From assembly GCA_022385755.1 (NCBI GenBank), contig MU278369.1:434803-498802 (forward strand): a DNA stretch of 64,000 nucleotides. Direction: 5' to 3'. The notes below the pieces were generated by a model. That model had not been told where the DNA came from and did no database searches. It saw only the letters and a list, made by a program, of their open reading frames with translations. Of the stretch, positions 1-63,890 are shown piece after piece. Position 1 is the first letter of the stretch. The number at the start of each line of letters is the position of its first letter. The translations under genes and the position numbers were made by a program. This stretch comes from Trametopsis cervina. Lineage: Eukaryota > Basidiomycota > Agaricomycetes > Polyporales > Irpicaceae.

Positions 1-637
1 GGCTCAGTTATCGCCCCAGCGACTGTGCTCACATGTCAGAACATATGCACGGACCCTTGGCTCGTGCGACATCACCTACCCCATCGCAGCATCTGCCTCG
101 CTCTCTTTTTGCCATTGCTTATCGCGCCGTTTGCGACTTGAACAGAACCACGATACGAAGGATGGAATTCGTCTACATAGGACACTGGATTATGACGGCT
201 AGCAGCTGACAATCATAGAAATGTCCTGTCCGGTCGAGCATATAGGTGCGAAAGCAGCAAGAGGTAGTGCGGTGTCTGCATCTCTTCGTTACAACGGAAC
301 TCCTGCAGGACTGATAGGAACGCCGCCACATAGCCCTGTCGCTGAAGGGCGTAACAACGACCAGGATGGCGCTCATCCCGCTACAGCGAATCATGCCCCA
401 GTCTCCTCGCAGATTGGTCATAAGGAGCAGAGCACTTCCACGGACTTCGGGTTGCGAAGATGGAGGCCCCTGCGAATCGGCCTTGTAGCGGTAAACGAGC
501 CTCATCTCGAACCGTTGCCTGGTTGCCAACTTAGGTCGCATCTACATCACACCAAACGCTTGTACATGTGGCCATGAAGACATGTCATATTGCTGTACGT
601 GGGAAGGAAATGCGAGGTAGAGGAGAGCACACAATAA
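1..637. other. No supported gene; left edge and eL33 3' flank
   Basis: Overlapping reading frames of about 120 codons occur on both strands around 170-580, but none resembles a known family or has convincing splice structure. The right part should hold the 3' untranslated region of the neighbouring minus-strand ribosomal protein gene. Nothing else is seen. Confidence 0.5.
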
Positions 638-1331
638 TCAAATAGAAGACGGGTACAGCATCTATATTCATTATTAGCTTCAGAGCATACACTGCAGACA
701 AGGCTACGCACCACTCGTACACTGGCACCGAAGGCGTGAGGAGGGATGTTCGACCTGAATTTTGACTTGACAACACCGTTGCTGCCGTGAGAACGGGTGA
801 CACGGCTGATGCATAAAGCGTTAGGATGCAAAGCGAGCAATAGTGAAGGAGGATGCATACCCCCAGATAACTCGTACGTTGGACCCTTCGATCTTCTTCT
901 TGGCGCGGTAGACGTACGCAACGCGCTGCTCAACAATGAGTACTCTGCATGTCTCATGGATGATCCGTGGGACGTACCTTGCCGAGGTAGAACTGCGCGT
1001 CCTCCTTGGAGGCGACACCCTCGATCTGGACGAGGGTGGTGTTGGGGCGGGTGTTACGCTTGGCGCGCTTGTGGCCGAGGATGCGTCCCTTCGAGTAGAG
1101 TCTGTGAAGTATACAGCCCGCGTAAGTCTCCTGTTGCGATGTAGACGGCGTCCAGAACGAGCTAAGAGTGCGGCGGAGGGTCCTGCATGCGCCAGCCTAC
1201 CGAGCCATCATCCGACTGAGACGAAACCCATCCATCACATTCCAGTCTCTCCCGTCCCCTCCAAGTCACCCAACCCAGCCCAGAAGGTCGATATGCCAGC
1301 AAGGATTCGTCGCTCACCTTGTCGAACCCAT
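638..1331 (-). CDS. RPL33: 60S ribosomal protein eL33 (L35Ae family)
   Basis: Structural protein of the large cytosolic ribosomal subunit. Five exons join in frame: 1331-1318, 1101-978, 925-861, 805-712 and 661-638, giving 106 residues, the usual length for eL33. The first exon codes only MGSTR, the Arg codon being split by the intron. Diagnostic stretches are [49 protein letters not shown] and [10 protein letters not shown], and the protein ends in MLYPSSI like its fungal relatives. All introns are GT-AG. Four introns in a 321-base coding sequence, with a very short first coding exon, is typical of basidiomycete ribosomal protein genes. It is transcribed away from the ornithine acetyltransferase gene, so the two may share control sequence. 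Identification is secure; the exact 5' untranslated region is not visible. Confidence 0.96.
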
Positions 1332-1810
1332 TTTTGTCGTCGTTTCGGCCGGTGTCGAGAGTCTTGAGGATGCCGCCTAGTGTCGGGCGTCACACAAAAT
1401 GCGCAAAGGCGCGCCTGCTGACTAAGCGTCCGTGGGAATGTTTCTGCCTATCGCGGAACAGCGGTTATAGCCGCAGGTGCCTGCCGACTTTTTTGCTCTT
1501 GAACATCGATGCAACCTCCAGGGTTGCACTTGGCCGTCACTCTTCACGACGCGTGCAAGTAACGGAGCGGTGTCAGAGCAAACCTGTAGTCTTCATACCA
1601 GATACGTTTTCTAGCTCGGCTTTGTATTCTCAAAACACCTGAGCTTGGTGCGGAGGCAATATTATTATTCCAGCTGTAACTGACATGCTTTACGCCACGA
1701 AGCTCTGAGTCATTGCCTGCGTAGAGCATACACGTCTTGCGGTAGGCGTCCACGTTTAAAAAACTCCAGCAACCAATAGCATCAGCACCGTCACCTCTAC
1801 CTGCTCCACC
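1332..1810. promoter_or_regulatory. Intergenic region between two divergent genes
   Basis: This 479-base gap separates the start codons of eL33 (leftward) and ornithine acetyltransferase (rightward) and must contain both promoters unless an unseen gene is present. A T/A-rich run (tttaaaaaa) lies about 55 bases before the rightward start. No specific factor sites are claimed. Confidence 0.55.
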
Positions 1811-3299
1811 ATGACTGGAAGCCGCCTCCCAGTGCTGCCTGGCGTCATCCGCCGACTCTCGTCGACGTACACCTCCAAGCCGATGCCATCCAAAGCGCAC
1901 TGGCATGCCCCCATCTCCGACGCCTCCTTCCCGCGTGGATTCGTCCTGACTGGCGTGCACGCGGGGGTGAAGAAGCGTGCCGACCTACTCGACCTCGCTG
2001 TCATCCTCTCTAAACAGCCCGCCGCGGCTGCGGCCTGCTTTACACGCAATGCGTTCCAGGCCGCCCCCGTCCTTGTCTCGCAGGACGTCCTCGCTGCAAC
2101 CGGCGGCCGCGCGCGCGCGATTGTCGTTAACAGTGGCTGCGCGAACGCCGTCACTGGCGCGCAGGGGCTTGCTGATGCATGGGCCATGGTGCGCGCAACG
2201 GACGCACTCCTCGACCCGCCCCCGCCCCCATCAGGACCCAGCGAGACACTCGTCATGTCTACCGGCGTTATTGGCCAACCTCTCCCCATCTCCAAAATTA
2301 TCGCGGGCATTCGTGCACAGACCGCAGCGGGTATGCTCGGTTCAGGGTTCGACGCATGGGAGCGTGCCGCACATGCGTTCATGACAACGGACTTGTTCCC
2401 GAAGCTGCGGGCGCGCACGTTCACCATTCGTGGTACGGAGTACCGCCTCGCGGGTATCGACAAGGGCGCAGGGATGATCCACCCGCGCATGGGCCCGCCT
2501 CATGCGACGCTCCTCGGTTGCCTCCTCACCGATGCGCCCGTTTCGCCGCGCGGCCTACAGAGTGCGCTTACATATGCAGTCGAGCGCAGCTTCAACTCGA
2601 TCAGCGTTGACGGCGACATGTCGACGAACGACACTGTTGTCGCGCTCGCAAACGGCGCCGGTGCGCCCGTCGGCACACCCGCCATCGATGAGCATACCGA
2701 CGTAGAAGCGTTCACCGTCTTCAGGGAGGAGCTCACGTCGTTCGCGGCGGAACTGGCACAACTTGTCGTCCGGGACGGTGAGGGTGCAACCAAATTTGTC
2801 ACCGTGTCTGTTGACGGCGCGAAGACGTACGAGGACGCACACAAAGTGGCGTCGCGCATCTCAACTTCGGCACTCGTCAAGACGGCGCTGTACGGCGAGG
2901 ACGCAAAGTAAGCTCGCGCTGCCAGATGTTATTGGGCGACTGCTGATGGCTTGACAGCTGGGGCCGCATCCTGGCAGCGACCGGTTCGATCCCGCTGTCG
3001 ACGCCGTTGGATCCGGCGCGCGTCAGCGTATCCTTCGTTCCCAGCGATGGGACGGCCGCGTTGCCGCTGCTTGTCAACGGCGAGCCCGAAAAGGTCGACG
3101 AAGCGCGCGCGTCAGAGATCGTGGGCGCTGAGGACCTTGAGATCAGGGTCGAGCTGGGGCTCGGGAACGAGAGTGCCAAGTACTGGACGTGCGATTTTAG
3201 CTATGTGAGTGTTCGAATCACTACTGTCGTCCGTATGCGCCGTTGACATGCGGCACTGCTCAGGAGTATGTGAGGATCAATGGCGATTATAGGACGTGA
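1811..3299 (+). CDS. ARG7: Arginine biosynthesis ArgJ, ornithine/glutamate N-acetyltransferase, mitochondrial
   Basis: The family moves the acetyl group from N-acetylornithine to glutamate (ornithine acetyltransferase), and often also makes N-acetylglutamate from acetyl-CoA, closing the cyclic arginine pathway in mitochondria. Exons 1811-2907, 2958-3204 and 3264-3299 give 459 residues, normal for fungi. Residues 1-25 are rich in Arg, Ser and Thr and free of acidic residues, as expected for a matrix presequence. ArgJ signatures are [22 protein letters not shown] and HATLLG. Thr233 in HATLLG is the expected autoproteolysis site and nucleophile that splits the precursor into alpha and beta chains. 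The N-terminal family HPRMG replaces the more usual APNMA-like motif next to it. The C-terminus ([11 protein letters not shown]) is the typical ending and is supplied by the tiny last exon. Whether it keeps the synthase activity cannot be told from sequence. Confidence 0.95.
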
Positions 3300-4054
3300 G
3301 CGAGGATGATCGGACTATGGGGCACTTGCGCTACACATGATGATCATACTCCGTGGTATATGTTGGAATAGATCTAGGCTTGCTAATGTGACATTGAGAA
3401 TTCGTATCTGCGCTAACGCGGGTAGCTTGAGGCACTGACATCCATTGGTAAAGACGATACAGGTAGTACGGTACGAAATTCGATACTAGGTTGAGATTAT
3501 CATGACTGACTCACGTAATCCTGATAGTGTACAGTGGCCGTTCTATGGCTACCACCTGTGTACTACGTGCTGGCGTAGTCGCTCTGCACTACCCTCCCCC
3601 TTCCGCACTGCCACACGCTCTGCGCATCGCATTACCCTGACTAGCAGTGCGAGTCTGGCCGACATATGTGCACAGTGCATGATACTAAACCGACATACCG
3701 GCTCACCTCAACTATTGTCAGCCGCACATATTACCACATTAGAGGCTGTCCGCAGTGGCTGACGTCGAAGTGAGCACCATATCCGCGTTTCGGAATACAA
3801 GATCTCGCTGCGTATCTGATGTCAGCCTCGTCAGCCTTATCCTGATACCGCCTCCTTGTGGCGTAGAACCGTTCTTCTTCTCTTCCTTCGTACTGCTCTA
3901 CACCTTCGCTGGTCGAAGACAATCATCCGTGCCTCACCTTCTTCTCTTTATTATACCTTGACGATTGCAGGTCAATCTAATCACAGTTCCACTTTTCCTC
4001 ACCACCAACATCCACGTCAGACCTACGCCACTCACACTCTCCTCGTCACGTCAC
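3300..4054. other. Intergenic, no supported gene
   Basis: Contains the 3' flank of the ornithine acetyltransferase gene and the upstream region of the next gene. A possible acceptor (gattgcag at about 3963-3970) in the same open frame as the next gene hints that it may have a 5' untranslated or extra coding exon here. Confidence 0.4.
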
Positions 4055-5943
4055 ATGTCTTTATACCACGGTAACTCGGGCGACTCACTGCTGACTCCGA
4101 CCCCAGAGAACAGTCTCAGGCTCACGGACACTACCAACCACATCATCCCCTCCCTTCTTTCAATGCCATCCATCTCTGCCAGGACTGTCACAGAGCAAGC
4201 ACTCTCGGCTTCTCAGTCAGAAGCGTCGATCTCGGTGCACGAACGGGCCCTCCTACGACACCTCGCTCGGTCGCATACCTCCAATGAAACGGAACAAGAC
4301 AATAGTCAATCTACTCGCTATCCTCCTCGTCTCCACCCTGTCATGGGACGCGTATTGCCTCACTCGTTCGGCCAGCCTCGATCTGTGCTTGGTACCGCAC
4401 GCCCAAGTGAGATGAACAGAGAATCGTCGAGGGTCACGAAAAGGGACCAGGACCTTGACGAGAGTCCGAAGTTCAAGATGCGTCGCGCTCGCATCCGGGA
4501 AATGGAGCGATTGCAGGACCTAGAAGACGAAAGGGATATAGATAAACAAAAGGGGCTGGTGAGAAATAAGACTTTTGTTTGCTTGAATATCGCCACCTCT
4601 AACACAAAGGCTGACTTGACCGTGTTCTGCTCCAGGAGATCTTAAACGCCCTCCTGACTTCTCATCCGTTTTCCAATGTTAACGCAACCTTTGAAGATCT
4701 CGATGGACTGGCCCATAAATGGGACGAGTGTAACGTGAGAAGGAACATGAAAGAGCGCTGGGTAAGGACTTAGCATGACTTCGATGGGGCATCCGCCTTT
4801 CATACGCTGAGGTTGCATAGGTTTACTAAAATCTCTTTGCAGAATCAGAAGCACCTGCACGTCAAAAGCGGTCATTTGGACAATGTCCTAATTGATCACC
4901 GGGCGGTCCATGCATTGTACGCTGACCTGAGAAACAGCGGACACGGGTTCGTCCACTCTCAATCTCGCGAATCAAGTAGTTGGATGGTCTCAAGCATATC
5001 CGCGCCATATATCTCCCGCCAACGGTCTCTCTCGCGCGTGGCAAGTGTCGGCGGGCCCCGGCCGCTCAGGATACGAAGGACGAGTTTGTCCTCGACGCTG
5101 CGAAGTAGGAGTGGTTGCTCTACCAACGCCGTCGCTCAACCAAGCGAGAATTCAACTGAAGTTGGGACGCACACCATAAGAATGAACTATACGAGCTCAG
5201 AAGACCTGGATAGTCCTCCACAGAGAATCTCAGGTCTGTCAACAGGATCACATACACGCCGCCGCGATCCCAAATCAAAAGAGACGCTAGCTGGAGACAA
5301 TCAAACTGCAGGAAAGGTTTGCCTACCGCGTATGACCCGGACCATGTCGAGTTTCAGTTCGGATGGACTCGGTTGTGGAATAATGCCTCCCGACGTTCTT
5401 CTGAACATCAATGCTCCTGAGGTAGCCGCACGAGAACAACAACGGGACGCAAGTGAAGATACAGAAGCTCCGTTAATGATGCGGGTCAAGTCCAGCGCGG
5501 GATCCAGTTCTAGCTCATTCGGTGTGCGGCCGTTGCGCGTCAAGAAAAGAAGTGGTCCTGTCATTCGACCAGACACCAAGCTTCAAATCCATGGCTTAGA
5601 ACGTACGTCAGAATCAATGGGCCCAGAAGGCGAACAGGAGGACATAGAAATCGAGGAACTCGAGCGCATCCTTCTAGCTGCAGACCAGTCTCTTGACGGA
5701 GATTTGCTTACTGAGAAGCGGCCCCTTCCTCCCCCTCCACAGACTTCGCAGCGCTACTTGACCTGGAGCGGGTCGCAGGCGTCATATTCACTCGAATCAA
5801 CGATCTCTCGTGCAACTGGAAGAGGAAGGCATGCAATCCGAAGACCACCCTTGCCTTTCGTGAATGCGATGGAGCAGTATATTGAAGACCCAAGCTCTCT
5901 GAGACCGCTTCAGGAGGTATTACGGGAGCCAGTAGTGTGCTAG
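4055..5943 (+). CDS. Hypothetical Ser/Arg-rich protein, 567 residues
   Basis: I do not recognise the family. Three exons join in phase 0: 4055-4558, 4636-4734 and 4843-5943. The introns are 77 and 108 bases with consensus ends. The first ATG in the open frame is at 4055. The protein is largely low complexity and probably disordered, with many Ser, Arg and acidic residues. One ordered-looking stretch spans the first intron: a charged helix of the form RRARIREMERLQDLEDERD followed by EILNALLTSHP and a short block ending in AHKWDEC. Ser-rich basic segments such as SRQRSLSRVASVGG and a proline run (LPPPPQTS) follow. There is no signal peptide, membrane segment or catalytic motif. The exon joins keep a long frame open, so I think it is a real gene. 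A scaffold or regulatory role is possible but unsupported. The next gene converges on it. Confidence 0.75.
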
Positions 5944-6334
5944 ATTTGGAATGTGTGAGTATAGGCGATTCGGTGCGGGCGGTGAATAGACCGAATGTGT
6001 TGTTACTGTAACCATAACGCTATATCCTCCGATTGACCGTGATTTATTGTTCATGGATGTCACGATAAATGATGCTTTGAGATATCTTTGACGTGCGATT
6101 GCGGGCGAGTTAGCCTGGTCATAGCGACTTTTGTTCAACTTTGAGTCCGCGGGACGGCAAATAGCATTCTAAAGCTTTGAGTCGAATGATCCAATCAGGA
6201 GAAGCACAACTGACGACATGCGGCGGTGCAACAAGGTCAAAGCCATACACGCTAGTGGGTGCGACAATATAACACATTAAAATAGTCTGTCTGGTGCCTC
6301 TGATCGACTTCGCTTATGGATCATCCACTAACAA
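5944..6334. other. Convergent 3' flank
   Basis: The 391 bases between two tail-to-tail genes, A/T-rich and without a supported gene. Both 3' untranslated regions and polyadenylation sites should lie here. Confidence 0.5.
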
Positions 6335-7717
6335 CTATAGCCGTATGTGCACGCAGCTGTCGTCGCCACCACAATGGCAAGTTCTTCTCATCTCCATAAT
6401 AATATCCTTTCCCTTAAGCTCTTGCAGTTCTCCAATGACCCTGTCCGTCTCTTCTTCGTCCCACTCTTCCATCCAGTTCTGCTCGTACAGAAGCTCGATC
6501 GCTTCGAGTACCTTAAACTTTCGGCAAATCCTCCGGAATAAGCTCCAGTCCACAGCGTTGCACATCCAAGGGTTAATCAGACCTTCGTTTGACGGTACAC
6601 GAGCACAGTGAGTGTCGTCGAAGTCGACGGTGAAGTGGCGAAGGTTTTCTGGCGGCAAGGCGGCAAGGATCTTGAAGAACGCCGAGTACACTTCCACGTT
6701 TCGGGGGTTCCCTTGCGGTGCAAACATCGCCCCGCTACGGAAACTAAAATATTGAATTTTTTTGCATGAGTCCAGTCCGTCCCGTAAGGCTGATACGAGA
6801 AGCTGCGGTGCTGAGGAAGGGTAAGGGGATTATTCTTCTGGAGCTCACTCGAGTGTGAAAATTTGAGACTCACTGATGAGATATCTCTCGTTCTTGACCA
6901 TATTTAACCGCCATATATCCAAGATGAGGGAGACTAGATTCGTGCCAGTGTCACGGAGAAAATCGCCTGCAGCCTTCAAATCCGTCAGAGAGCGACACGA
7001 GATTTCAAGATGCGAGAGTGTAGATCCAGAAGCAGGAGCTAAGATGGGGAGAAATACGGCCAATGGAAGATGATGGGTTATGACTAGACGCGAAACCGCA
7101 GGTCCAGGTCCAGACCAGAGGGGTACTTCAGCGTGTTCGCTTCCTTTCATCTTTCCCAACTTGTCCTCGAAGCCGATGAATTCGAGGCTACTGATGCGGG
7201 AAAAGGAGCATAGAACCGAAATAACGCCTTCGTATGGACTCTCGTTCAGTGTCTTCACCCCACGCATGGTAACCGAGTGGATATCTCGGTGGCGGTTGAG
7301 GCCCTGGATGGACGATGATGGGGTGGAGACGACGATAGAAACATGTTCCAGTTCTAAGCTGCGCAGACACGGAAGCCTCTCCACGGTCTTGAGAAGAACG
7401 TCGACGTCGAGAACGGGCTTGTTGAAGAAGATTCCTCCGACCTTCAACACTTTGATGAACGGCGCGATATCTTCTTTCGTGGCGACTTGCTTCTTGATAA
7501 ACTCGTTGCATGCGGCGAAATTTCTAGCGTCGTCAGTGAGGTCGATCGTCACCTCGGAGAAGACGTAGCGGAGAGACGCCCTTCGCCATTGATGCGACAC
7601 CAGTGATGAGGTCTCGATATCTTCAGGTGGTACCATTGAAAGCGTGGCATCCAGTAGCTCTGTAGGCAAGCGCATGATAGGTGAAAAGCGAGAGTTCTGC
7701 TGAGCAATAGCGCTCAT
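6335..7717 (-). CDS. F-box protein with probable leucine-rich-repeat-like C-terminus
   Basis: F-box proteins are substrate receptors of SCF ubiquitin ligases; the F-box binds Skp1. Exon 1 is 7717-6874 and exon 2 is 6789-6335, giving 432 residues. The join was chosen because A|CC restores the frame and yields TLRDGLDSCKKIQYFSFRSG; other acceptors shift the frame. The F-box covers about residues 14-52 (MRLPTELLDATLSMVPPEDI, then LVSHQWRRASLRYVF). The rest has recurring short Leu/Ile-rich strands of the type LRSLELEHVSIVV, ISSLEFIG and LSHLEISCRSLTDL, typical of degenerate repeats in the large basidiomycete F-box families. The open frame continues upstream, but the first ATG gives the start used here, and a TATAAAA box 71 bases upstream supports it. 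The substrate is unknown. Confidence 0.85.
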
Positions 7718-7787
7718 CTTGAAGGGTCGAAAATAGGAGACTGAGAAACGCTTGGTCCCGTCCAAGCTCCTGACTTCACGTTCCCGG

Positions 7788-7794
7788 TTTTATA
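7788..7794 (-). promoter_or_regulatory. Probable TATA box of the F-box gene
   Basis: The minus strand reads TATAAAA here, 71 bases before the chosen ATG at 7717, a sensible distance for a fungal core promoter. Confidence 0.5.
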
Positions 7795-9729
7795 GATCTT
7801 TGTCTTCCGGTGTGGCCAGAGCCAAACTGGAAGTGGGGCCAACTTGGCTCCCATCATTTGACATGGTCAACATCCCGTACTGGCCACAGTGAAACGCGAA
7901 TTTCCCTGCCCGTGTGCCCCTCTGGTGGTTCCAACCGCTTACGCGCTCCCAGCATTGAGTAGAGCTAGCAGAGATACTGAGACGATGATTCGGCCTAGTC
8001 GATAGTCGAATCGAGTGGAACAAAAAATCGGCCACTGGGGAGTGCTTGAGACTGATCGCAATACAGCGGAAGCAAAATCCTGCCCTTGTTTCTTGTGGCT
8101 TAGTGACGGGCTCGGGGCCTTGATTCCAAAACCTGTCTCCTGGAAAGCGCGCTGAGCTCTACTCCGCGCATCTTCATCTCCGTCTCTAATGCTGGCCTGA
8201 GAGGGCACGAGGGACCGCAGAGAACGACTTTTCTTTGCTGCTCCGTCGGTGTTGAAGCACGGGATGAAGTCCTTCAATTATCACCAAAGCTGGTTTGGGT
8301 TACAGCGTGTGTTGCACTTCCACCATCCGAGACCACCGGCACTATGATGCCCTCCCGTGTGCCCAACCCTATTGATTTAAAGGAATTAACCCTAGGGCCC
8401 ACAGGGAGCGGTAGAGACGGTCTCATACCATCTGCGCCCCTGGTGATGACGACCGTGTTCCACTGGCCTTTCTCGGCCACGCCATGCTTGGACGCGCTGA
8501 CAGGTGGCGTTCGGCGACAAGGTTGCTGGCGCTGAAGGGACGATTCGTCATGAACTCGGGCAGTACGATGAAGAGTCCCGTGATTGCCTCGGGAAAGCCA
8601 CAGGCGGGAGTGCAGATCCATGCTACTGGCAACGTATTGTTTTGGTCCCTCCGAAAGGGTGTAGATATCATGGGATACGCCCAACTGCTGCTCAGGCAAT
8701 CTAAACAGAACTTGAAGCGGTCGCTATACTGAGAGAGAGCATCCGTTCCGTGTGTGTTTTGAAGTTTTTCCTTGCCCAAAGAAACAGGGAAGGCGTCAAC
8801 CTCTTGCGCGCGCAGTATCTTATCCGCTAGCAGCCGTCCAATCGCAGTGCTGAAATACGGTCATCAGTGCTTGGTCCATTTAAGTGAATCACAATAGGCG
8901 TACCGTATCATGGCGTACAAAATGGACACGCTGTCCACGATATGGAAATTTGAATCAATTAAGCGAATTTGCAGAAACAAAGGTAGGTCCGCTGGACGTT
9001 CAATAAACTTTCCGAGTTGTGCCAGCAACAATCCGGTGCGGTATTGCTATGGTGGGGATGAAGCAAGGGGGAAAATACTTACAAGATTGGAGGTTCTGAA
9101 TAAGATCATATGCATCAAGACTAACGAAGTCACGGTAACTATGAGATGGTTCTGAGAACGACTAAAATCAAATAAACGGAATCGGCTACGAATGACTCAA
9201 CCACACTTGCCTAGGCAGCGACGATGCCACAATATTCCACGAGGGTGTGTGATTCACCGATGGTAAGGCTTTCGATGTCGCCTTAGCTTCGTGTTTCAGC
9301 ATACATATCGAAAACGTATTATGCAGATGGAACTGGTTGCGAAAGTTATAATGCTTCTCGTTGTTACGCCCCCAACGGTATTACCTTCGCAGCAGCGGCT
9401 GAGAACAAATCTTGCATGCTTTTTGCTGGTAGCATTCAAAGAGACACCAGGACGCAAGAGCAGGCTGTCACTGAGGAAAAGACGAACTATGCAAGCTGCA
9501 CTGCGGCGCCTGTAACGTGATGTAAACGTGGTGGCGTGCGAACCTTCCCAAGAAACTCCTCGGAACTTGCACGCTGTGTGGGACGGTGATTTGATCCGAT
9601 GAACCAGTTACAGTAGTGACAATGTAATCTGACAAAGTAAATGAAAAGGGAAAATATCTAAGGTAGAGACATAGAGATTTACTGTTAACATGACAATCTA
9701 ATGGGAGTACATCTACACCAAGCTACGAG
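7795..9729. other. Unresolved 1.9 kb, possibly a decayed minus-strand gene
   Basis: No confident gene. On the minus strand, hydrophobic exon-like pieces end at splice-like sites: one ending in SNL before GTAAGT near 9088, another (IVDSVSILYAMIR) before GTACGC near 8905, then an open frame at about 8870-8423 starting TAIGRLLADKILRAQEVD. They do not join into one convincing protein and frames break. It could be the remnant of a multi-pass membrane protein gene, or chance. The segment from about 9150 to 9729 shows nothing recognisable. Confidence 0.25.
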
Positions 9730-12700
9730 TACAATAATAATGCTAGTAATGTGAGTGATAACGGGAATTAAATCAGTGAGCGACTATCCACGGCGTTCAG
9801 CTCCAATCCAGGTCTCGTCCATCATCCACGGTCTACGACTTCCACAACCACACTCCCAACACATTCATCCCCACCTTTCTCATAAATTCCAACATCAAAC
9901 TCTCCAACGTCACCAGTCCCAGGGAATCCGGACAGTTCAACCATCCGCCGTTCCTTCTTCTCGCCACTGCCACCCGAAGACTGCGACCGAGGACTGCCCG
10001 CTGCGTTCGTGTCCACAATCATGAACCCCGGCATCTTCCCACCTCCCGCCTTCCGTGCCTCCAACACCACTGCCGGCGACGACGGAACAGAAACAGGAAT
10101 GCGGAAACGGAAGTATTCGTTGGCCCGCGCAAGCATCCGAGGCACAGGAAGTTTCGAGAGCGACATCGCCGTTCCGTGATGAGACGATTCAGCTATCGAG
10201 AAGCTCGGCGACGGGGAGTTGCCTGTTGGGGGGGGGGTGCAAAGGTAGTCAGTATCATAGTGACAGAGTGTAGAACGTACAGAGCAGCAGTCCGCAAACG
10301 GCGAATGAATGCGAATGAATGTGGATAAAACGACAACAACAACTTACCGGCAGATAAACCACTCGCGTCACCTCCCAACGCACGCACGTACGTGATCCCA
10401 ACAGACAGGTCGTCGCCACTCGTGTCCATCCCATTCTCACGGCCCTCCGCGCGACTCACCCGCCGCTCCACAGATTCACTCCTGAACACTCGCGCCATCT
10501 GACTCACTACCCGCTTAGGACCACCATGATATGACCGCTGTGTGTTCGGTCCGACGGACTTGGCTTCTGCTGCTACTGCAGACGTACCAGGGACAGATCC
10601 AACCGGCAGCTTCGGTACAGGCACTCGAGTGGCAGACGTGAAAGGCACAAGACGTGGTCGTGTGGTAGCAGCAGCAGCAACAGCAGCAGCACTAGAGGTA
10701 GCAGCGGAGGATCCTTTACCAGGGTGAGGTGCCTTGAACGACCACATACTCCCGTCGCGTCCTTGCAAACTCCGGATGCTTCTCGCACGCTCAGCCTGTT
10801 GGATCACAGCGACTTCCCCATCGGACCCGCTGCCAGAACCGGTCGATTCGAGTGAAGCTTGACGAGTGAGAGGGACAGCATACGCATGCGTCTTCGATAC
10901 ATGTGCTTGCGGGGGCGTTGTCAATGCAGAACCAGCAGCTCTCATCCCAGAGCTAGACCGAACAGGAGGCGGAGGAGCCGCAAAGTCAGGTCGACGGCGG
11001 GGGATAGAAGGCGCAGAACGTCCATCAGTGGAAAACGACGGAGAGCCAGCAACAGATGTCCCAGTCATCCCGCTCATGTTGTCCATCACGCTCGTAGTGT
11101 AGCTTGCATCATCGAACGGATCGTGTTCAGCACTTCTCACCCGTGAACGACGCGGCGCATTCGTGTACCGTAGGTCGTCTGCATTCGCCTTCTGTCCGTC
11201 CTCCGTCACGATCAGACTCGGCTTGCCGATCACAAGCTTCACCATTCCCTTCCTATTCCTCGTGGAGTTCCCGACATTGGTAGTGACAGCTCGGCGGTAC
11301 GTGTCACTGACCATCCGAGCTGTGGCCTTCACTTTGCCTACAAAATCGCCCTTGCGCATCACACCGCTGCCGCCAGGACTCAGCATCTCGCGAGGAGCGT
11401 TAGTACCACGATAGCCAGTGGGTATTCTGCGAAGCGGAGTGCCAGCGGCCCGAGGACTCGTGGGGCTCGACGTATGTGACCTGGTAGACGGCGACCCGTT
11501 GGGACCAGAGTGGGATTCCCCGCCTATCTCGATCCCGATGCCATACCACCTTTTCTCCTCTGCAGTCCAAGCCTTCTCGCCGTCTTCGCCAACCATCGCC
11601 GTATCCGGTACAGCGGCACATTTCCGTAGTCCAGCAAGTAGAAGACCACAGAGCACAAGTCCACCGACGATCCCAAACGCAATCTTCAGACCCAGAAGCA
11701 TTTTCTGTCGAGCAGCTAGAGACAGTTTTGATCCATGAGGCCCAGAGTTCGCATCATTGTTCGAGTGCTTGAAATCGGCCTCGGTCAGAGAGATTGGCAG
11801 AGTCGTGTGAGACGTCGAGTGCGTGACATGAGAGTAAGCCGTAAACGTGATTGTCACATGCGTGTAGTTTGCTGTTGAAAAATTTGCTGGAAAGGCCCCA
11901 GAAACAGTCGCAGCTATAGGGTCGAAAGCCAAATATTTTGTCGAGTCTTCGGGATCGAACGAGGCCGAGAGAGAGACGTCTGCCGGACTCTTCTCCCCAG
12001 TTGCGTTGGAAAAGAATTCCGTCAGGCGGAACTGGGTGCTGCCACTTCCTGTTTGCACAAGCTGCGGTTGAAGCACGTCAACAGAAAAATAGGATGGCAC
12101 AACAGCAAGTGATACATTCGTCTCGATAGTCTGGTTCACTGCCGTCGCGATCGTCACGGGGAAGAGGATGGGCGACTTCTCGCTCTTCGGTACCTCTCCT
12201 TTCAGTGTCCGGGTGCCGGTGTCGTATTCCAGCCACTCGCCGTAGAAAGACGTGTCGACCTCCAGAGTCGTGATGTCACTGGGCTTGATCGGCTCCCCGT
12301 CCAGCAATATCCCTGAGAAGTCTGCAGGTGAAGTCAAGGACACCGAGAACGAAGAGTCAGACGTCACATTGATAGTAGGCAGTGAGGAGCCGGCCAGAGA
12401 CACATCGTGAGACGCAACGTAGATGTCGAACGGTAGAGACGCCCCAGAATACCCCCGCTTATCGGACGCGTGTAGGGCGAGCGCAAGACGTGTTGACGCG
12501 TACGAGGATGAAGACATTAACTCCGACGGCGGAGGCGTCACACCGTCCAATGTAATCGTTTGGGAGTCGAAGCTGATCCATGAAGGCAACGGGGAACCAT
12601 CTCGTTGCAGAGCCGCATAGTAGACGTCCGCGTTCGGATCAGAATCTAGCAAGAATGTGTCGTATTCGAATCCGACGCTGAAAGACCACTTGGGCGGAAT

Positions 12701-13329
12701 TCGTAGTGCGGGTATAGGATCAGATGCCACAAGAGATCCAGACGTGGACGTAGACGCAGCCTGAGGTAGACTGACGGTTCTCAACGCGGACTTCTCGGAT
12801 ACCAGAAATACAGAAGAGAGCGACGGGTTTGGTAGATGGAACTGGTCTTCAACCGAGCGGTGAAGCTTAGGAGGGGGAGAAGACGTCGTTTGAATAACAA
12901 AACTTGACATCGCAGTGTCGCCTGAGCCTTTCGCCAAGACCTGAACGTCCTGAGACCCGAGGTCCGCCTGGGTAGGGGTACCATGAAACGAGAGCGTCGA
13001 CCGGTCAAAGTTCAGCCACGAGGGAAGGTTCTCGGCGGTGTATTCCAGGCTACCGTTGTTTGAGGCCAGGAAGGAGTTTTTCGAGAAGGACCAGCGATAC
13101 TCTGTGTTTGCTCTTGCAATAAGAGGAAGTTGATCTTCTAGAGGGTATTGGACTGATACCGATGCGGACGCAGTCGAGAAGAATAGTAAGAGGGAGACAA
13201 ACAAAGGAAGGACGTGCATAGCGATGGTCTTGGGAAAAAAAGAGTGTAAGTTAAGATGTCAAGGTCGTTGATACAAGGCAGCCAGCGAGTCTGCCAGCGA
13301 CTCGTTCAAGACTTGGGCAAACGGTGATG
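9730..13329 (+). repeat. Left arm of a 3,600-base inverted repeat
   Basis: The reverse complement of this arm matches 15072-18671 base for base by position (coordinates sum to 28401), with no insertions or deletions. Three mismatches were found, all in the outermost 65 bases, at 9759, 9765 and 9794. Outside 9730 and inside 13329 the similarity stops at once. Each arm holds one complete AXL2-like gene, including about 110 bases upstream of the ATG and about 90 bases downstream of the stop. Confidence 0.95.
9822..13219 (-). CDS. AXL2: AXL2-like cadherin-fold membrane protein, left copy
   Basis: Predicted type I plasma-membrane glycoprotein of the Axl2 (axial budding pattern) family, which in yeast marks sites of polarised growth. 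Exons 13219-10348 and 10222-9822 give 1,090 residues; the intron is 125 bases and is preceded by a C-run acceptor. Residues 1-19 are a clear signal peptide ending in STASA. Dystroglycan-type cadherin-like units are seen at about 22-110 (LPSWLNFDRSTLSFHGTP) and 175-235 (LPSWISFDSQTITLDGV), with more beta-rich, N-glycosylation-rich sequence up to about 490. The membrane helix is about 508-530 (LGLKIAFGIVGGLVLCGLLL). The cytoplasmic tail of about 560 residues is Ser-rich and basic. The predicted protein is identical to the copy at 15182-18579. Function in a filamentous basidiomycete is inferred from the family. Confidence 0.92.
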
Positions 13330-14078
13330 AAGAGCGGTGACAACTTTCGTCCAGGTTGTAGTTCAGCATATAGAATGCTCGCGCAAGATATCACGTGCCG
13401 CTTGATCAGTATTGGGCCTGACCACTACGTGTTACAGTAACGGATCAGCGACCTCTAGGTCTGTAAAGGAGTTCTTACTCAAATCCTCTTTCAAGATGCT
13501 ATCGTACAGCAGACGCTGCTTGTAGGTAGCTCTCAAAGGCGTGCGGCCTTATTGTGAGTGCATACGCACCGGAAAAAGCTCCCTCAACATGCGGTCTCTC
13601 CGTCGCCGCACGCAAGAGTCATTCCCGGTCTATCGAAGGTCTAACCAAGCCCGCAATCCGGCCCTCCTCCAGATTCCAGGATCGAGCTGACGTAGAATGG
13701 CGCACACGGCGTCGAAACTTATGCCGGTGTAGATGAGAGGCGGACGGCAAGGCGTGGTCTTGTCGTAATAAGCTCCTCGTACCTCTTGACTAACAAATCT
13801 GATTCCCATCATCGTTCTAGCTCGCGTTATTCTGCTAGGCGGGTCCCTACGCCCCCAATTACAACGCGGTGAGCACAGGTTCCGTGAGCTCGTCCACCTT
13901 GCAGATGCCCAGCTAGGCACACAAAGTTACAAGATATCTAAGGTACATTGGATATCAGTGTGAGTGTTTGTCTCGCAAATGGTGGAATAATGTGGTACGT
14001 TTCGTTTTTAGTCAAAGCTCAGGCTGGCTGGGTAAGCTCGTCATTTTCTTTCGTTTCAGTATAGTACATACCATACAT
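13330..14078. other. Left part of the spacer between the arms
   Basis: Unique sequence between the left AXL2-like gene and the stop of the prefoldin gene. It must hold the promoter of the left AXL2-like copy beyond the shared 110 bases, and the 3' end of the prefoldin transcript. No gene seen. Confidence 0.45.
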
Positions 14079-14921
14079 CTAGTTTTTGTCTTCCTTCTCC
14101 AGGGCCTCTTGTTCCCGCAACTCGCGCCGTCTCTTGACATCCCAGTTGTATACTCGTGCTGTATTAACCTCCATTACCGTAATTTGTTCTCGAAGGAACT
14201 CCAAATCTTCAATAACGCCCTCCAGACTAGACTCTGCGGATTTGAGCTTTTCTCGTAGCAAATCTATCGCTGCAGGTATCTTATATGATAGCATGACATT
14301 CGCCTAGGGAAAGCAACTCAGTACGATATTTATAATCCTCGAAGAGAAGCGTACCCCGAGCCACAGATAGACAGTATCGGTGTTCTCCAGTTCCGCTTCC
14401 GCATATAAGGTGTCATTAAGCTCGAACGTCGTTTGTATTGGCTTGACGTCGTCGGTGAGCTCATCATCGTCCTCTAGGTCGTCGTCGTCGTCTGTTGTCT
14501 TCTTACCCTCCTGGGTGGTAGTAGTTAGAACGACTGGCGAGCTACATTGTGACTGAACGTATACTAACTCGTCGTTCATGCAAGAATTCGATCATGCTCA
14601 AAGTTTTCTTGATGTCGGGAATCTTCTCCTCCAATCCTCTTCGTCTTTGTGCAAGGTTCTGATCCATGTACCGATATTTTCTGCATGTGTCGTTAAGCGA
14701 GTCGAACTGTCAAGGATAATATGCAATACGCACGCAAGTGCGGATTGGATTTCCTTCAAAGCAACCTCCACGTCGGGATCGGGGCCCAAGTGCTCTGCAA
14801 CATCGGCCTAAGCAACTCAGAACATATCGTCCATTGAGATCCCTCCCTCACTTACGATGAATGGTGCTCTCGGTATGCCACGCGCATTCTTCTCTTGGCT
14901 TTGAGTGACAGAGGTCGACAT
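14079..14921 (-). CDS. PAC10: Prefoldin subunit 3 (alpha-type; Pac10/Gim2, VBP1)
   Basis: Alpha-class subunit of the hexameric prefoldin chaperone, which hands unfolded actin and tubulin to the CCT chaperonin in the cytosol. Five exons join in frame: 14921-14856, 14807-14734, 14680-14569, 14510-14355 and 14303-14079, giving 188 residues, normal for this subunit. Diagnostic stretches are RGIPRAPFI, GPDPDVEVALKEIQ, the coiled-coil helix RRRGLEEKIPDIKKTLSMIEF, then FELNDTLYAEAELENTDTVY and LWLGANVMLSY in the beta-hairpin core. The second coiled coil is EKLKSAESSLEGVIEDLEFL, and the end RVYNWDVKRRR is typical. An Asp-rich insert (DDDDDLEDDDELTDD) sits between helix and core. The third intron uses the less common donor GTTAGT. 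The gene lies wholly inside the unique spacer between the inverted arms and is transcribed toward the left arm. Confidence 0.94.
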
Positions 14922-15181
14922 AGGGAACTGCTATGTTGTGGCGGTTTTGAAGTAATTGTATGATGTAAGAGATGCAACCGTAAACACTACGTTTCCTCCA
15001 ATCGAAGTTGCTCGGGTATCTCCGCTGGGTGCGCTTTCAAACCCAACAGCCACTCCCTCAGTCTACTGAACCATCACCGTTTGCCCAAGTCTTGAACGAG
15101 TCGCTGGCAGACTCGCTGGCTGCCTTGTATCAACGACCTTGACATCTTAACTTACACTCTTTTTTTCCCAAGACCATCGCT
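14922..15181. promoter_or_regulatory. Divergent promoter of prefoldin 3 and right AXL2-like copy
   Basis: 260 bases separate the two outward-facing start codons. Only 15072-15181 belong to the repeat arm, so the right AXL2-like copy has this unique upstream context, while the left copy has a different one beyond 13329. No specific sites are claimed. Confidence 0.5.
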
Positions 15182-18100
15182 ATGCACGTCCTTCCTTTGT
15201 TTGTCTCCCTCTTACTATTCTTCTCGACTGCGTCCGCATCGGTATCAGTCCAATACCCTCTAGAAGATCAACTTCCTCTTATTGCAAGAGCAAACACAGA
15301 GTATCGCTGGTCCTTCTCGAAAAACTCCTTCCTGGCCTCAAACAACGGTAGCCTGGAATACACCGCCGAGAACCTTCCCTCGTGGCTGAACTTTGACCGG
15401 TCGACGCTCTCGTTTCATGGTACCCCTACCCAGGCGGACCTCGGGTCTCAGGACGTTCAGGTCTTGGCGAAAGGCTCAGGCGACACTGCGATGTCAAGTT
15501 TTGTTATTCAAACGACGTCTTCTCCCCCTCCTAAGCTTCACCGCTCGGTTGAAGACCAGTTCCATCTACCAAACCCGTCGCTCTCTTCTGTATTTCTGGT
15601 ATCCGAGAAGTCCGCGTTGAGAACCGTCAGTCTACCTCAGGCTGCGTCTACGTCCACGTCTGGATCTCTTGTGGCATCTGATCCTATACCCGCACTACGA
15701 ATTCCGCCCAAGTGGTCTTTCAGCGTCGGATTCGAATACGACACATTCTTGCTAGATTCTGATCCGAACGCGGACGTCTACTATGCGGCTCTGCAACGAG
15801 ATGGTTCCCCGTTGCCTTCATGGATCAGCTTCGACTCCCAAACGATTACATTGGACGGTGTGACGCCTCCGCCGTCGGAGTTAATGTCTTCATCCTCGTA
15901 CGCGTCAACACGTCTTGCGCTCGCCCTACACGCGTCCGATAAGCGGGGGTATTCTGGGGCGTCTCTACCGTTCGACATCTACGTTGCGTCTCACGATGTG
16001 TCTCTGGCCGGCTCCTCACTGCCTACTATCAATGTGACGTCTGACTCTTCGTTCTCGGTGTCCTTGACTTCACCTGCAGACTTCTCAGGGATATTGCTGG
16101 ACGGGGAGCCGATCAAGCCCAGTGACATCACGACTCTGGAGGTCGACACGTCTTTCTACGGCGAGTGGCTGGAATACGACACCGGCACCCGGACACTGAA
16201 AGGAGAGGTACCGAAGAGCGAGAAGTCGCCCATCCTCTTCCCCGTGACGATCGCGACGGCAGTGAACCAGACTATCGAGACGAATGTATCACTTGCTGTT
16301 GTGCCATCCTATTTTTCTGTTGACGTGCTTCAACCGCAGCTTGTGCAAACAGGAAGTGGCAGCACCCAGTTCCGCCTGACGGAATTCTTTTCCAACGCAA
16401 CTGGGGAGAAGAGTCCGGCAGACGTCTCTCTCTCGGCCTCGTTCGATCCCGAAGACTCGACAAAATATTTGGCTTTCGACCCTATAGCTGCGACTGTTTC
16501 TGGGGCCTTTCCAGCAAATTTTTCAACAGCAAACTACACGCATGTGACAATCACGTTTACGGCTTACTCTCATGTCACGCACTCGACGTCTCACACGACT
16601 CTGCCAATCTCTCTGACCGAGGCCGATTTCAAGCACTCGAACAATGATGCGAACTCTGGGCCTCATGGATCAAAACTGTCTCTAGCTGCTCGACAGAAAA
16701 TGCTTCTGGGTCTGAAGATTGCGTTTGGGATCGTCGGTGGACTTGTGCTCTGTGGTCTTCTACTTGCTGGACTACGGAAATGTGCCGCTGTACCGGATAC
16801 GGCGATGGTTGGCGAAGACGGCGAGAAGGCTTGGACTGCAGAGGAGAAAAGGTGGTATGGCATCGGGATCGAGATAGGCGGGGAATCCCACTCTGGTCCC
16901 AACGGGTCGCCGTCTACCAGGTCACATACGTCGAGCCCCACGAGTCCTCGGGCCGCTGGCACTCCGCTTCGCAGAATACCCACTGGCTATCGTGGTACTA
17001 ACGCTCCTCGCGAGATGCTGAGTCCTGGCGGCAGCGGTGTGATGCGCAAGGGCGATTTTGTAGGCAAAGTGAAGGCCACAGCTCGGATGGTCAGTGACAC
17101 GTACCGCCGAGCTGTCACTACCAATGTCGGGAACTCCACGAGGAATAGGAAGGGAATGGTGAAGCTTGTGATCGGCAAGCCGAGTCTGATCGTGACGGAG
17201 GACGGACAGAAGGCGAATGCAGACGACCTACGGTACACGAATGCGCCGCGTCGTTCACGGGTGAGAAGTGCTGAACACGATCCGTTCGATGATGCAAGCT
17301 ACACTACGAGCGTGATGGACAACATGAGCGGGATGACTGGGACATCTGTTGCTGGCTCTCCGTCGTTTTCCACTGATGGACGTTCTGCGCCTTCTATCCC
17401 CCGCCGTCGACCTGACTTTGCGGCTCCTCCGCCTCCTGTTCGGTCTAGCTCTGGGATGAGAGCTGCTGGTTCTGCATTGACAACGCCCCCGCAAGCACAT
17501 GTATCGAAGACGCATGCGTATGCTGTCCCTCTCACTCGTCAAGCTTCACTCGAATCGACCGGTTCTGGCAGCGGGTCCGATGGGGAAGTCGCTGTGATCC
17601 AACAGGCTGAGCGTGCGAGAAGCATCCGGAGTTTGCAAGGACGCGACGGGAGTATGTGGTCGTTCAAGGCACCTCACCCTGGTAAAGGATCCTCCGCTGC
17701 TACCTCTAGTGCTGCTGCTGTTGCTGCTGCTGCTACCACACGACCACGTCTTGTGCCTTTCACGTCTGCCACTCGAGTGCCTGTACCGAAGCTGCCGGTT
17801 GGATCTGTCCCTGGTACGTCTGCAGTAGCAGCAGAAGCCAAGTCCGTCGGACCGAACACACAGCGGTCATATCATGGTGGTCCTAAGCGGGTAGTGAGTC
17901 AGATGGCGCGAGTGTTCAGGAGTGAATCTGTGGAGCGGCGGGTGAGTCGCGCGGAGGGCCGTGAGAATGGGATGGACACGAGTGGCGACGACCTGTCTGT
18001 TGGGATCACGTACGTGCGTGCGTTGGGAGGTGACGCGAGTGGTTTATCTGCCGGTAAGTTGTTGTTGTCGTTTTATCCACATTCATTCGCATTCATTCGC

Positions 18101-18671
18101 CGTTTGCGGACTGCTGCTCTGTACGTTCTACACTCTGTCACTATGATACTGACTACCTTTGCACCCCCCCCCCAACAGGCAACTCCCCGTCGCCGAGCTT
18201 CTCGATAGCTGAATCGTCTCATCACGGAACGGCGATGTCGCTCTCGAAACTTCCTGTGCCTCGGATGCTTGCGCGGGCCAACGAATACTTCCGTTTCCGC
18301 ATTCCTGTTTCTGTTCCGTCGTCGCCGGCAGTGGTGTTGGAGGCACGGAAGGCGGGAGGTGGGAAGATGCCGGGGTTCATGATTGTGGACACGAACGCAG
18401 CGGGCAGTCCTCGGTCGCAGTCTTCGGGTGGCAGTGGCGAGAAGAAGGAACGGCGGATGGTTGAACTGTCCGGATTCCCTGGGACTGGTGACGTTGGAGA
18501 GTTTGATGTTGGAATTTATGAGAAAGGTGGGGATGAATGTGTTGGGAGTGTGGTTGTGGAAGTCGTAGACCGTGGATGATGGACGAGACCTGGATTGGAG
18601 CTGAACACCGTGGATAGTCGCTCACTGATTTAATTGCCGTTCTCACTCACATTACTAGCATTATTATTGTA
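15072..18671 (-). repeat. Right arm of a 3,600-base inverted repeat
   Basis: Partner of 9730-13329 in opposite orientation. The arms have the same length. Identity covers promoter-proximal sequence, both exons and the intron. The three mismatches lie at 18607, 18636 and 18642, beyond the stop codon at 18579. The last shared bases are ttattattgta at 18661-18671. Confidence 0.95.
15182..18579 (+). CDS. AXL2: AXL2-like cadherin-fold membrane protein, right copy
   Basis: Same 1,090-residue product as the left copy: signal peptide 1-19, cadherin-like ectodomain, one membrane helix at about 508-530, and a long Ser-rich cytoplasmic tail with a run of Ala and several Pro-rich segments. Exons are 15182-18053 and 18179-18579. 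The second exon adds about 133 residues including MSLSKLPVPRMLARANEYF; reading through the intron instead would give a shorter 1,008-residue form ending in a different tail, so intron retention could make two products. It is divergent from prefoldin 3 and followed by a glycosyltransferase gene on the same strand. Being next to unique sequence on both sides, it cannot be said from one genome which copy is the original. Confidence 0.93.
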
Positions 18672-19117
18672 TTTATAGCCTGGATTAGACCGATGTAGCT
18701 GTAGTTCTGTACGATGTTCGTACTACACATGTATTCCGCAATCTAGACCATAAACCTCTCGCGCGTTTGGCCAAGGCAGATTGATGTTTGTCCTCTCTGT
18801 CTAGTACTGATCTCGTGTGCAACATCTCTTTACGCGTTCATGCCAGTATGCGCCCGATCGTTGATACATATTCATTCGGCCGAGCAGGATGCGGCCGTAA
18901 TGGTGAAGTCGTGCACTCGAAGATGTTTTGCGATTTGCAAATGATTGACTGGGCGGCCAATGGTCACGTGATAGATCGTGCCAGCGAGGACCGATGCGAG
19001 CGCGTTCCTGCTACACTTGGTGCAACAGATGAGCAGTCCAAAAGCGATGCTTGCCGTGGACTCTGTCCTCGACGCCGCCTATCACTCGGCGTTGACACTC
19101 TCCCCCGTCTACAAGCA
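18672..19117. other. Intergenic and possible 5' extension of GT17 gene
   Basis: The frame of the next gene stays open upstream with in-frame ATGs at 18848 and 18923, but the extra sequence is polar and unlike the family, so I treat it as leader. Confidence 0.45.
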
Positions 19118-20320
19118 ATGCTTGTAAGCCGCCGCAAGGTCGTACTACTCCCTGCCATCCTTATTTCGCTCTTTCTGGTATACTATGTCTCCCTCTACCA
19201 CTACCAACTGCGCAACACACTGTCCTACGCGACTCGACCCCTGTGGGACCATCCAGATGGACCGAAGGATGTTCTACCCCACTACTATGCGCCCGGGATA
19301 CCTATGAACGACTACACCTGTTCGTTGCATGGATGGACCGCGCGGCGGGATGCTCAGCCATTTGTGCTGGATGCTGTGCTCATGAGCAGCGAGCTCGACC
19401 TCCTTGAGATCAGGATGCACGAACTGGATGCCGTCGTGGACAAGTTCCTAATCTTGGAGAGTAACGCGACCTTCACAGGCTTACCGAAGACGGCGTACTT
19501 TGCGGAGAACAGAGCGAGGTTCGCGGCGTTCGAGCATAAGATCGTGTATTCATTGTGAGTCCGTTTGTTCGTCTCCTTACATACCATCCCTCGCTCATCG
19601 CACGCAAAGTCTTCCCGGATACCCCCTGAAGCCGGGACAACACGCCTTCGATGTCGAATCACACACCCGGGACACGATGACGGTCCTCCTCCGCACCACC
19701 ATCGATGCCTTGCCCCCCGGTAAAGACGTCCTCGTAGTAATGTCCGACGTCGACGAGATCCCGTCTCAGCACACGGTGTCCCTCCTCCGCGCATGCGACT
19801 TTGGGCGCTCCATTCATCTCCAGCTGCGCAACTTCTTATACAGCTTTGAGTGGTACCTTGGTCCAACTAGCTGGCGCGCCAGCGTCCACCTTTGGGATTC
19901 CTCGTCATTCTATCGACATTCTCAATCAGGGAACACGGTCCTTGCCGATTCGGGATGGCATTGCAGTTTCTGCTTCCGCACAATACACGAATACGTCGTC
20001 AAGATGCGCGGGTACTCGCATTCGGATAGGATTGGGGGAGACTTGAGTCTGCTGGATCCGGCGAGGATCCAAAAGATCATATGTCAAGGAAAAGACATCT
20101 TTGGGATGTTACCGGAGGCGTATAGCTGGGCGGACATGTTTTCGCACCTCAGTTTGGAGCCGTACGTGTCCTCCGTCCTCTGGCCTGCTATATTGTTAGG
20201 TGCTGTTACTGATATAAGAATCGCAGATCTGCATCGGCTGTCGGCATACCTCGATATTTAATCGAACAAGCAAAACAATTCCGCTTCCTTCTTCCAGGCG
20301 GGTGCATTCGAGAAGCATGA
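19118..20320 (+). CDS. GT17 glycosyltransferase (MGAT3-like beta-1,4-N-acetylglucosaminyltransferase)
   Basis: Family 17 enzymes include the vertebrate enzyme adding bisecting GlcNAc to N-glycans; fungal members are Golgi type II proteins of mostly unknown acceptor. Exons 19118-19554, 19610-20161 and 20227-20320 give 360 residues. The chosen ATG gives a short basic tail (MLVSRRK) and a membrane anchor at about 8-24 ([17 protein letters not shown]), the classic type II layout. The catalytic domain shows [35 protein letters not shown], the acidic metal-binding type motif DVDE at 192-195, [21 protein letters not shown], and the terminal [18 protein letters not shown] that is characteristic of the family. 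All three exons are needed to reach this ending, which supports the splicing. Donor and acceptor specificity in this fungus is inference only. Confidence 0.92.
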
Positions 20321-31400: not shown

Positions 31401-31690
31401 CATCGGTGTTCCCACCGTACGCCCTTGTTCCGCGATAGCAGCTCAGACGCGCCGCCTTACATCGGTTCCCATTTTATGCGCGACCTGCATACGAATGCAT
31501 CTTTGTGCGGCCGGAACGACGGCAGGACCAAAAGGCCTTCTTCTACACCCGGCTTGCCATGTAGAAGTTTTTGTTTGTTTTCGCTTCGAAGCATAACTCC
31601 CCAGCTTCTTCCTCTAGCGTGTATCACGGCCTGGAAGTGCAATATAATCTCAATGACCACTGCACCGACCGAACAGTATAAGTGATATAC
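28430..31690 (+). repeat. Diverged tandem array, about six units of roughly 440-710 bases
   Basis: A composite unit recurs in one orientation. The element around ccgctttacacggg (preceded by ggtaacagctc) is at about 28842, 29338, 30051, 30510, 30953 and 31450. The element gttctcaacag-acggct is at about 29255, 29983, 30440, 30871 and 31372. The element atcacggctaggaag is at about 29028, 29531, 30211, 30750, 31139 and 31622. A further block, tttctttccgatcggggttc, occurs only at 28434 and 29686, about 1,250 bases apart, so there is a higher-order level. Copies are heavily substituted and differ in length. No shared reading frame survives across units. Confidence 0.85.
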
Positions 31691-62254: not shown

Positions 62255-63890
62255 CCTATTTATGTGGAAACACAAACTCATATATATTGGGTGGTAGGTC
62301 TATACCAACATGTACGGTATGCGTGATGTCAGCGGTGAAGTGACATTATACCAGAACGTGCGGTATAAAGCTCCGACAGGGGATGTACACTGTATTTCTA
62401 TAACTCAGAGGTCCGCCACACCTGTCGTGTGGCGCCCAAGAGTGCGGTGCGCTCAATCACTGTCTTTGGACCTTTCCTCCGTGTGCTCCCACAACGTTCG
62501 TTCTCGCAACCCTTGAACTTTCCGGTAATGCAGCGCGCACTCCTACAGTAGTACAAAGGCTCTCTGGTGCGCTATTTTCCTGACGACGCTTCAACGAATG
62601 CGCCTAAACGGGGGTGTACCACGCGAGCGACGCACCTTAGAGTTTTCCAGTAACTGAGGTGAGTAAACTGTCGTTTAATAGCTCTGTGATCGCTTACCGC
62701 GCCCGGGGTCTTGAAGAGTTGCAGTACATGTATGCGCGACCATACTCGACCCCTTTGTCTCTCATCATATGAAGACGCTTTCGTGATCAGGACAAAAGAA
62801 CTTCAGAAGTGAGAGGCCAACTGTGGGCGGCACACGACGAAGCGGCCACGAAGGAAGAACAAGGCGGAACTGGAGAAACCCTTTGTGAGTGGCGGACCTG
62901 CTTCACTATCAACTGCTCACTAAGACCTGCACCCGAAGTGCGCTGCGGGTCCCTATCTGCACTCAAAATGCGCGCGAAGCTGTCTTGTGTATTGCCGATC
63001 TGGATGGAGAACATATCGTTAAACCCAACTCTGACCGCATCCAAGTTTTCGGCGAGTTAGGGCGTGTATGGGGCTCGTTTCAGGCTACCACGCTCTCTTC
63101 CATCTTCCCCGTAACGTATATGCGGGAAAGACAGAAGAATCACAGGATACCGAGAACTACACATGCGCTGTATTGTCTGCGAGAGTGAGGATGGACTGAA
63201 TCAAGACGGTTTCTGAAGTCTCTGGCGTTTGGGTTCGTCTCTTCCGTTGTGCTTGCCACTCTGATTTCTTTCGTGCTCAGATCCACTTCAACCTCTTGTA
63301 CCGTGGGGCGACCGTTTCGTGGCGACGTCGTGCAAGACGACAGCACGAGTGTATGGATCTCAGCTTTGTACCTTCCACGCCTCTCGCTACTTCTTGAGTG
63401 TCCACTCGCTTTACTGCGCGTTGTTTCTTGACCTTCTCGCCTCGAACAAGCTATGACGAACGCCTCGTGGCGTGAATTATTGCTTTTTCTTATGTGCTCG
63501 AGAAAAGAAATCGTGTTATATTCGGGTGAGTGAAACCATCGTGTCGACATGTTTCGATTTTCCCCTTCACTCACTCCGGGTTATGCCATACTCAAAGTAC
63601 TCGAAGCTGAAAATGGACACAGACTCGGACATATAACAAAACCCGCCTTCAGGATTCAGAGGGCCGTGTCTACCGCTGCAGCCACATTGGCTCTGGAGCA
63701 CAACCGCACATAGCCTACGCGGACAGTAGGCAACTTTGGACTGGGTAGGGACAGCATCAGAGACATTGCTAGTGGCGAGCTTCGGCTGCTACAATTATAG
63801 ACAAAAAGTCATAAAGGGGTAAGGCTAGTCATGGGTAAGGTTGCTAAATTGAGAAAGTCCAAAATGCATCAAAACAGCAGTATGAATAAA
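62255..63890. other. 1.6 kb without a supported gene
   Basis: EBP2 3' flank and mixed sequence with short frames only. No RNA gene or transposon domain recognised. Confidence 0.45.

Follow-up and report, generated by a model that had tools for sequence, protein, structure and literature searches.

The assembled genome of Trametopsis cervina carries two identical AXL2-like genes that face away from each other across a gene for prefoldin subunit 3. Each lies in one arm of a long inverted repeat, and across almost the entire length of these arms not a single base differs. Our preferred account, held tentatively and with somewhat less than even confidence, is that a genuine inverted duplication, specific to this lineage, placed an AXL2-like unit on both sides of prefoldin 3, and that gene conversion has since kept the arms identical.

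The inverted repeat and its genes

When the window (the whole 64-kb stretch of DNA that was analysed) is compared with itself by BLAST, a single large inverted match is returned, which sets 9712-13329 against 18689-15072. Pairing the two sides base by base, with left base x matched to right base 28401-x, resolves this into a left arm (9730..13329) and a right arm (15072..18671) that are reverse complements, 3,600 bp each, separated by three substitutions and no insertion or deletion. On the left, the substitutions lie 3' of the AXL2 stop codon at 9759, 9765 and 9794; their partners on the right are 18642, 18636 and 18607. All follow the AXL2 stop codon, at distances, measured inward from the outer arm edge, of 30, 36 and 65 bp. 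The remaining 3,535 bp (9795-13329) pair without a mismatch. Chance is, of course, no explanation for an exact match of this length. Between the arms, which are long, inverted and more than 99% identical, lies an unmirrored spacer of 1,742 bp (13330..15071). The original prediction had given these arm borders, the equal arm lengths, the three mismatches and the spacer length, and self-comparison and pairing return every one of these values exactly. It had also put the mismatches at the outer edge; they lie near it, 30-65 bp inside, and a weaker similarity, 18 bp long, continues beyond the arm.

Across 164 contiguous kb (the window and the 100 kb upstream of it), compared with itself at E 1e-10, just one other inverted match among those listed exceeds 200 bp; it is 209 bp long and 72% identical. 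The sequences just outside the two arms have one match each in the genome. The spacer has one full-length copy in the genome, together with three partial matches of 67-73% on contig C43; the part that resembles C43 sequence is 13403..13840, with its counterpart at two places on that contig. To the left of the left arm, a short dispersed repeat at 8444-8642 has an inverted relative (72% identity) at positions 426624-426829 of the contig that carries the window (C22). Compared with the genome, positions 1-9700 of the window give their self-match and two short matches of 72-79%.

Each arm corresponds approximately to one AXL2-like gene, beginning 110 bp before its start codon and ending 92 bp after its stop codon. 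The right copy, on the plus strand at 15182..18579, has exon 1 at 15182-18053, an intron at 18054-18178, and exon 2 at 18179-18579; these exons come from a splice model, and both were aligned to Irpex and Cytidiella proteins. The left copy, on the minus strand at 9822..13219 (exon 1 13219-10348, intron 10347-10223, exon 2 10222-9822), was modelled as the mirror of the right copy, with which its open reading frame and the exact identity of the arms agree. Splice model and arm identity thus bear out the earlier claim that each arm holds a full gene with the same 1,090-residue product. The single intron, 125 bp long, is present in both arms. It contains ten consecutive G (C when read along the gene) at 10228..10237, with its partner at 18164-18173. 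Such a run is a length-mutable tract, yet it is equally long in both arms.

The predicted AXL2-like product carries a He_PIG domain (PF05345). Its exon 1 is 65-67% identical to four aligned homologues (Irpex lacteus, I. rosettiformis, Cytidiella melzeri and one more), with 65-66% for the three named, and its exon 2 is 58-68% identical to the proteins of those three. Several of the matches listed bear the name "axial budding pattern protein 2." The match over both exons, together with the He_PIG domain, assigns the predicted protein to the AXL2-like family. In budding yeast, AXL2 marks the bud site and polarity. DNA, protein and domain searches of the genome, whose counts are lower bounds, find two AXL2 places, and both are here.

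The spacer holds, on the minus strand at 14079..14921, a five-exon gene (14921-14856, 14807-14734, 14680-14569, 14510-14355 and 14303-14079) with a predicted product of 210 residues; the border of exon 4 was shifted by one base by hand before the protein was compared. That product matches PF02996 with 87.5 bits; against a prefoldin 3 of T. cervina, it shows 100% identity across 96% of the query. The prefoldin domain, together with close similarity to proteins named as subunit 3, identifies the predicted gene as prefoldin subunit 3. Both family names in the original prediction are upheld by the family matches and by PF05345 and PF02996, and so is its statement that the spacer carries a full prefoldin 3 gene. 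A candidate second prefoldin copy, the one other place that the family search returned (on contig C4), proved to be different DNA.

In the gene models, the start codons of the divergent prefoldin 3 and right AXL2-like genes are separated by a gap of 260 bp (14922..15181). The right arm starts inside this gap, of which the left AXL2 copy has 110 bp and no more. The right arm's immediate outer neighbour, on the plus strand at 18848..20261, is a glycosyltransferase family 17 gene, whose start is uncertain and whose public model is shorter. Its product is 100% identical to a T. cervina protein over 77%. Among the best 120 of 772 matches to it, Stereum and Hohenbuehelia rank high, and no Irpex, Cytidiella or Phanerochaete occurs. 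From these matches, the gene looks patchy in this clade.

Origin of the neighbourhood

The contigs listed for AXL2 and for prefoldin 3 differ in length in all 45 species compared (45/45), among them the three nearest named relatives. Here, the longest contig printed for each database row was compared, with one pair of rows chosen by hand per species from the best 120 of 189 AXL2 matches and the best 120 of 3,131 prefoldin 3 matches. Hermanssonia centrifuga, Lentinus tigrinus, Dichomitus squalens and Schizophyllum commune were excluded, as they presented mixed strains, mixed assemblies or several rows; for Trametes versicolor, rows that share a tag prefix were used. For some species, the two rows may stem from different assemblies, and the prefoldin rows of Rhodonia and Sparassis comprise two contigs each, with the longest alone printed. 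In none of seven species are the locus tags of AXL2 and prefoldin 3 adjacent (0/7), the smallest difference being 184, on the assumption that numbering follows position, which may fail for "DRAFT" tags such as those of T. versicolor.

Because the contigs listed for AXL2 and prefoldin 3 differ in every species of this comparison, the AXL2 - prefoldin 3 - AXL2 neighbourhood was probably derived in this lineage. An ancestral linkage of the two genes is judged unlikely from the differing contigs and the locus tags. Irpex lacteus, I. rosettiformis and Cytidiella melzeri have one AXL2 row each (one member, one contig), in a database that is non-redundant and clustered at 90% and so could hide an identical copy.

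T. cervina belongs to Irpicaceae (Polyporales). Its strain BRFM 1824 has been sequenced by JGI, according to the available part of PMC6055342. A literature search returned no title or start of an abstract that names this locus, and nothing that combines "Irpex lacteus" with "inverted duplication." The accessible portions of PMC13322289, PMC8480192 and PMC8955403 hold nothing on this locus.

The outer edge and its explanations

Mismatches climb outward. From the inside, their number goes from 0 in 3,535 bp to 3 in 65 bp and then to 6 in 18 bp, after which similarity is gone. The last of these steps is a fading border at 9712..9729 on the left and 18672..18689 on the right, where 12 of 18 bases match; the inner arm edge is sharp and does not fade. 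An anchored, ungapped shuffle gives p 0.003 for the 18 bp, a stretch that was picked after the data had been seen. With gaps allowed, four scorings of 120 shuffles each give p 0.025, 0.092, 0.025 and 0.000. Farther out, the local alignment of the 400 bp beyond the arms does not outscore shuffled sequence (p 0.9).

For all three substitutions to fall within the outer 65 bp, the chance is about 6e-6 for the named end and 1.2e-5 for either end, or 2.7e-4 if some 1,000 roughly neutral (weakly constrained) sites can vary; these probabilities are rough, since here too the stretch was picked after the data had been seen. Evenly spread mutation after copying is accordingly rated an unlikely source of the cluster. 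The cluster and the fading border of 18 bp together favour a process that either passes over the outer edge or targets it. The differences are confined to the arm ends, as conversion would have it, but the inner end has none and clustering can have other causes. The pattern fits conversion that stops short, an error-prone junction, or the smoothing of a consensus by reads anchored in the flanks.

In the first of these three explanations, a gene-sized AXL2-like unit would have been duplicated in inverted orientation, on both sides of prefoldin 3. Because both copies hold the intron, this duplication would have been at the DNA level; the same intron rules out a retrocopy. It probably occurred in, or after, the rearrangement that joined AXL2 to prefoldin 3, and the simplest route would be a replication template that switched to the opposite strand. 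Thereafter, the arms would pair, and a break in one would be repaired from the other, keeping the two identical. Conversion tracts would end before the outer border, where differences would persist. Occasional crossovers between the arms would flip the spacer and its prefoldin 3 gene. Conversion is ranked first, modestly, since no special event has to be assumed and a direct precedent exists. Conversion alone, of course, leaves the difference-free inner edge unexplained.

It is possible, and rated less probable, that the arms are identical simply because they are young. Here, a very recent inverted duplication, made by template switching or break-induced replication, would have seen no later conversion, and the differences at the edge would have come from error-prone synthesis at the junction. 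Point mutations linked to junctions do occur in replicative rearrangement, and the AXL2/prefoldin 3 neighbourhood itself looks derived. Near-perfect identity would then need no conversion. Zero mismatches over 3,535 bp cap the divergence at 8.5e-4 (95% upper limit). At the rate of 20 mutations per Gbp per generation given for Schizophyllum commune in the part of the source available (PMC8156620), that much divergence would take about 21,000 generations to build up. Against this, the edge cluster requires an extra mutagenic step, and the weaker similarity past the edge would be unexpected in a fresh copy, although imperfect microhomology at the junction could supply it. The original prediction had offered recent duplication or continual conversion. 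That pair of options was rightly chosen and both members still stand; what the edge cluster adds is a preference for a process limited to the edge.

The third explanation puts the identity in the assembly or its consensus rather than in the genome. One copy might have been assembled as two, or two diverged copies might have been smoothed to a single consensus. Consensus smoothing predicts that differences survive next to unique sequence, and here no difference is farther than 65 bp from the unique outer flank. Further, among the best 120 of 189 AXL2 matches (with candidates limited to 554-1,764 residues) there is no T. cervina protein, whereas T. cervina prefoldin 3 and glycosyltransferase proteins are present in their own searches. 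The public contig that carries the latter two genes is 501,067 bp long, versus 498,802 bp here, which means that the assemblies differ somewhere. On the other side, the arm borders coincide with gene borders, no Ns occur across the 164 kb, and the differences are substitutions, unlike the insertions and deletions that are typical of long-read error. A simple fold-back chimera, in particular, is ruled out, since a fold-back read would not produce an unmirrored spacer and each outer flank has its one genome match. An artefact of assembly or consensus is considered the least likely of the three explanations.

Another candidate, a mobile element that carries AXL2, was set aside because DNA and protein searches, with counts that are lower bounds, find no further AXL2 copies in the genome.

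Should duplication followed by conversion be correct, a further step could be proposed: that a putative polarity or cell-surface gene pair is kept identical by continual conversion that also flips the essential prefoldin 3 gene, giving an inversion polymorphism in the population. This extension is regarded as doubtful. If the pair is real, the two AXL2 copies in this genome are indistinguishable to RNA-seq and to variant calls.

Known inverted repeats and other features of the contig

The arms of mammalian sex-chromosome palindromes are, as a rule, much larger than those found here. In the available portions of the literature on them (PMC6790999, PMC3308322), these palindromes resemble the T. 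cervina locus in having near-identical, gene-bearing arms, maintained by conversion; they differ in lying on animal sex chromosomes. Candida tropicalis offers a fungal parallel, in which homogenised inverted repeats flank a non-repetitive core. Those repeats, as described in the accessible text of PMC4741521, have a structural role at centromeres and are common to several chromosomes, while the T. cervina arms are protein-coding and occupy one locus.

Closer in anatomy are the flip/flop repeats of Saccharomyces chromosome XIV, which the available part of PMC9731477 describes as inverted repeats of 4.2 kb that hold complete genes and undergo continual homogenisation. Gene conversion is the mechanism its authors put forward, together with a crossover now and then that flips the intervening region; they leave the reason open (PMC9731477). 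Both cases are nuclear inverted repeats of about 4 kb in a fungus, with complete genes in nearly identical arms and unique DNA between them, and in both a repeat border falls shortly after a stop codon. The Saccharomyces arm, however, holds two protein genes and a tRNA gene, where the T. cervina arm holds one gene, and its spacer is 24 kb long with 15 genes, where ours is 1.7 kb with one (PMC9731477). Conservation across the genus, inversion polymorphism and homogenisation have been demonstrated in Saccharomyces; the T. cervina pair is known from one assembly. The suggestion in the original prediction that cell-surface genes kept identical in this way would be unusual in a fungus was too strong, given this precedent.

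Palindromes in Caenorhabditis, as reported in the accessible part of PMC1803023, consist of divergent paralogue pairs that reach 100% identity and are kept alike across species. Like the T. cervina locus, they set divergent identical genes around a unique spacer. What separates their genes is short intergenic DNA, of 126 bp in one example and 414 bp in another, unlike the T. cervina spacer with its unrelated gene, and their structure is common to related species (PMC1803023), where ours is not known from any relative. The T. cervina locus probably belongs with the homogenised gene-bearing inverted repeats of Saccharomyces and Caenorhabditis, which it matches in anatomy; the comparative evidence that defines those repeats is known from them alone. 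If real, it would give fungi a second and compact example, this time from Basidiomycota, of genes carried on the identical arms of an inverted repeat. It would also help to ask why some gene pairs become homogenised, a matter that the available portion of the Saccharomyces report does not settle (PMC9731477).

Direct repeats also occur on the contig. On the upstream side of the left arm, some 25-57 kb away, C22:387452-418976 (L016-L019) holds three direct copies of a 4.4-4.8-kb unit that are 69-79% identical. Adjacent open frames in the L019 copy encode NPHP3_N/NACHT and many WD40 repeats, which suggests a cluster of NLR-like genes. At the other end, where window and contig finish together (63850-64000), lies a short degenerate repeat with units around CATTCATCTGCCA; no tandem run of TTAGGG occurs within the 64-kb window. 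Several internal direct repeats of 68-79% identity are found at 29222-31512; a frame of 204 residues there (29932-30546) matches nothing in Pfam. A pair of direct copies at 38495-39910 and 47889-49336 has diverged to 65% identity, and the second of these overlaps an open frame that encodes an epoxide hydrolase N-terminal domain.
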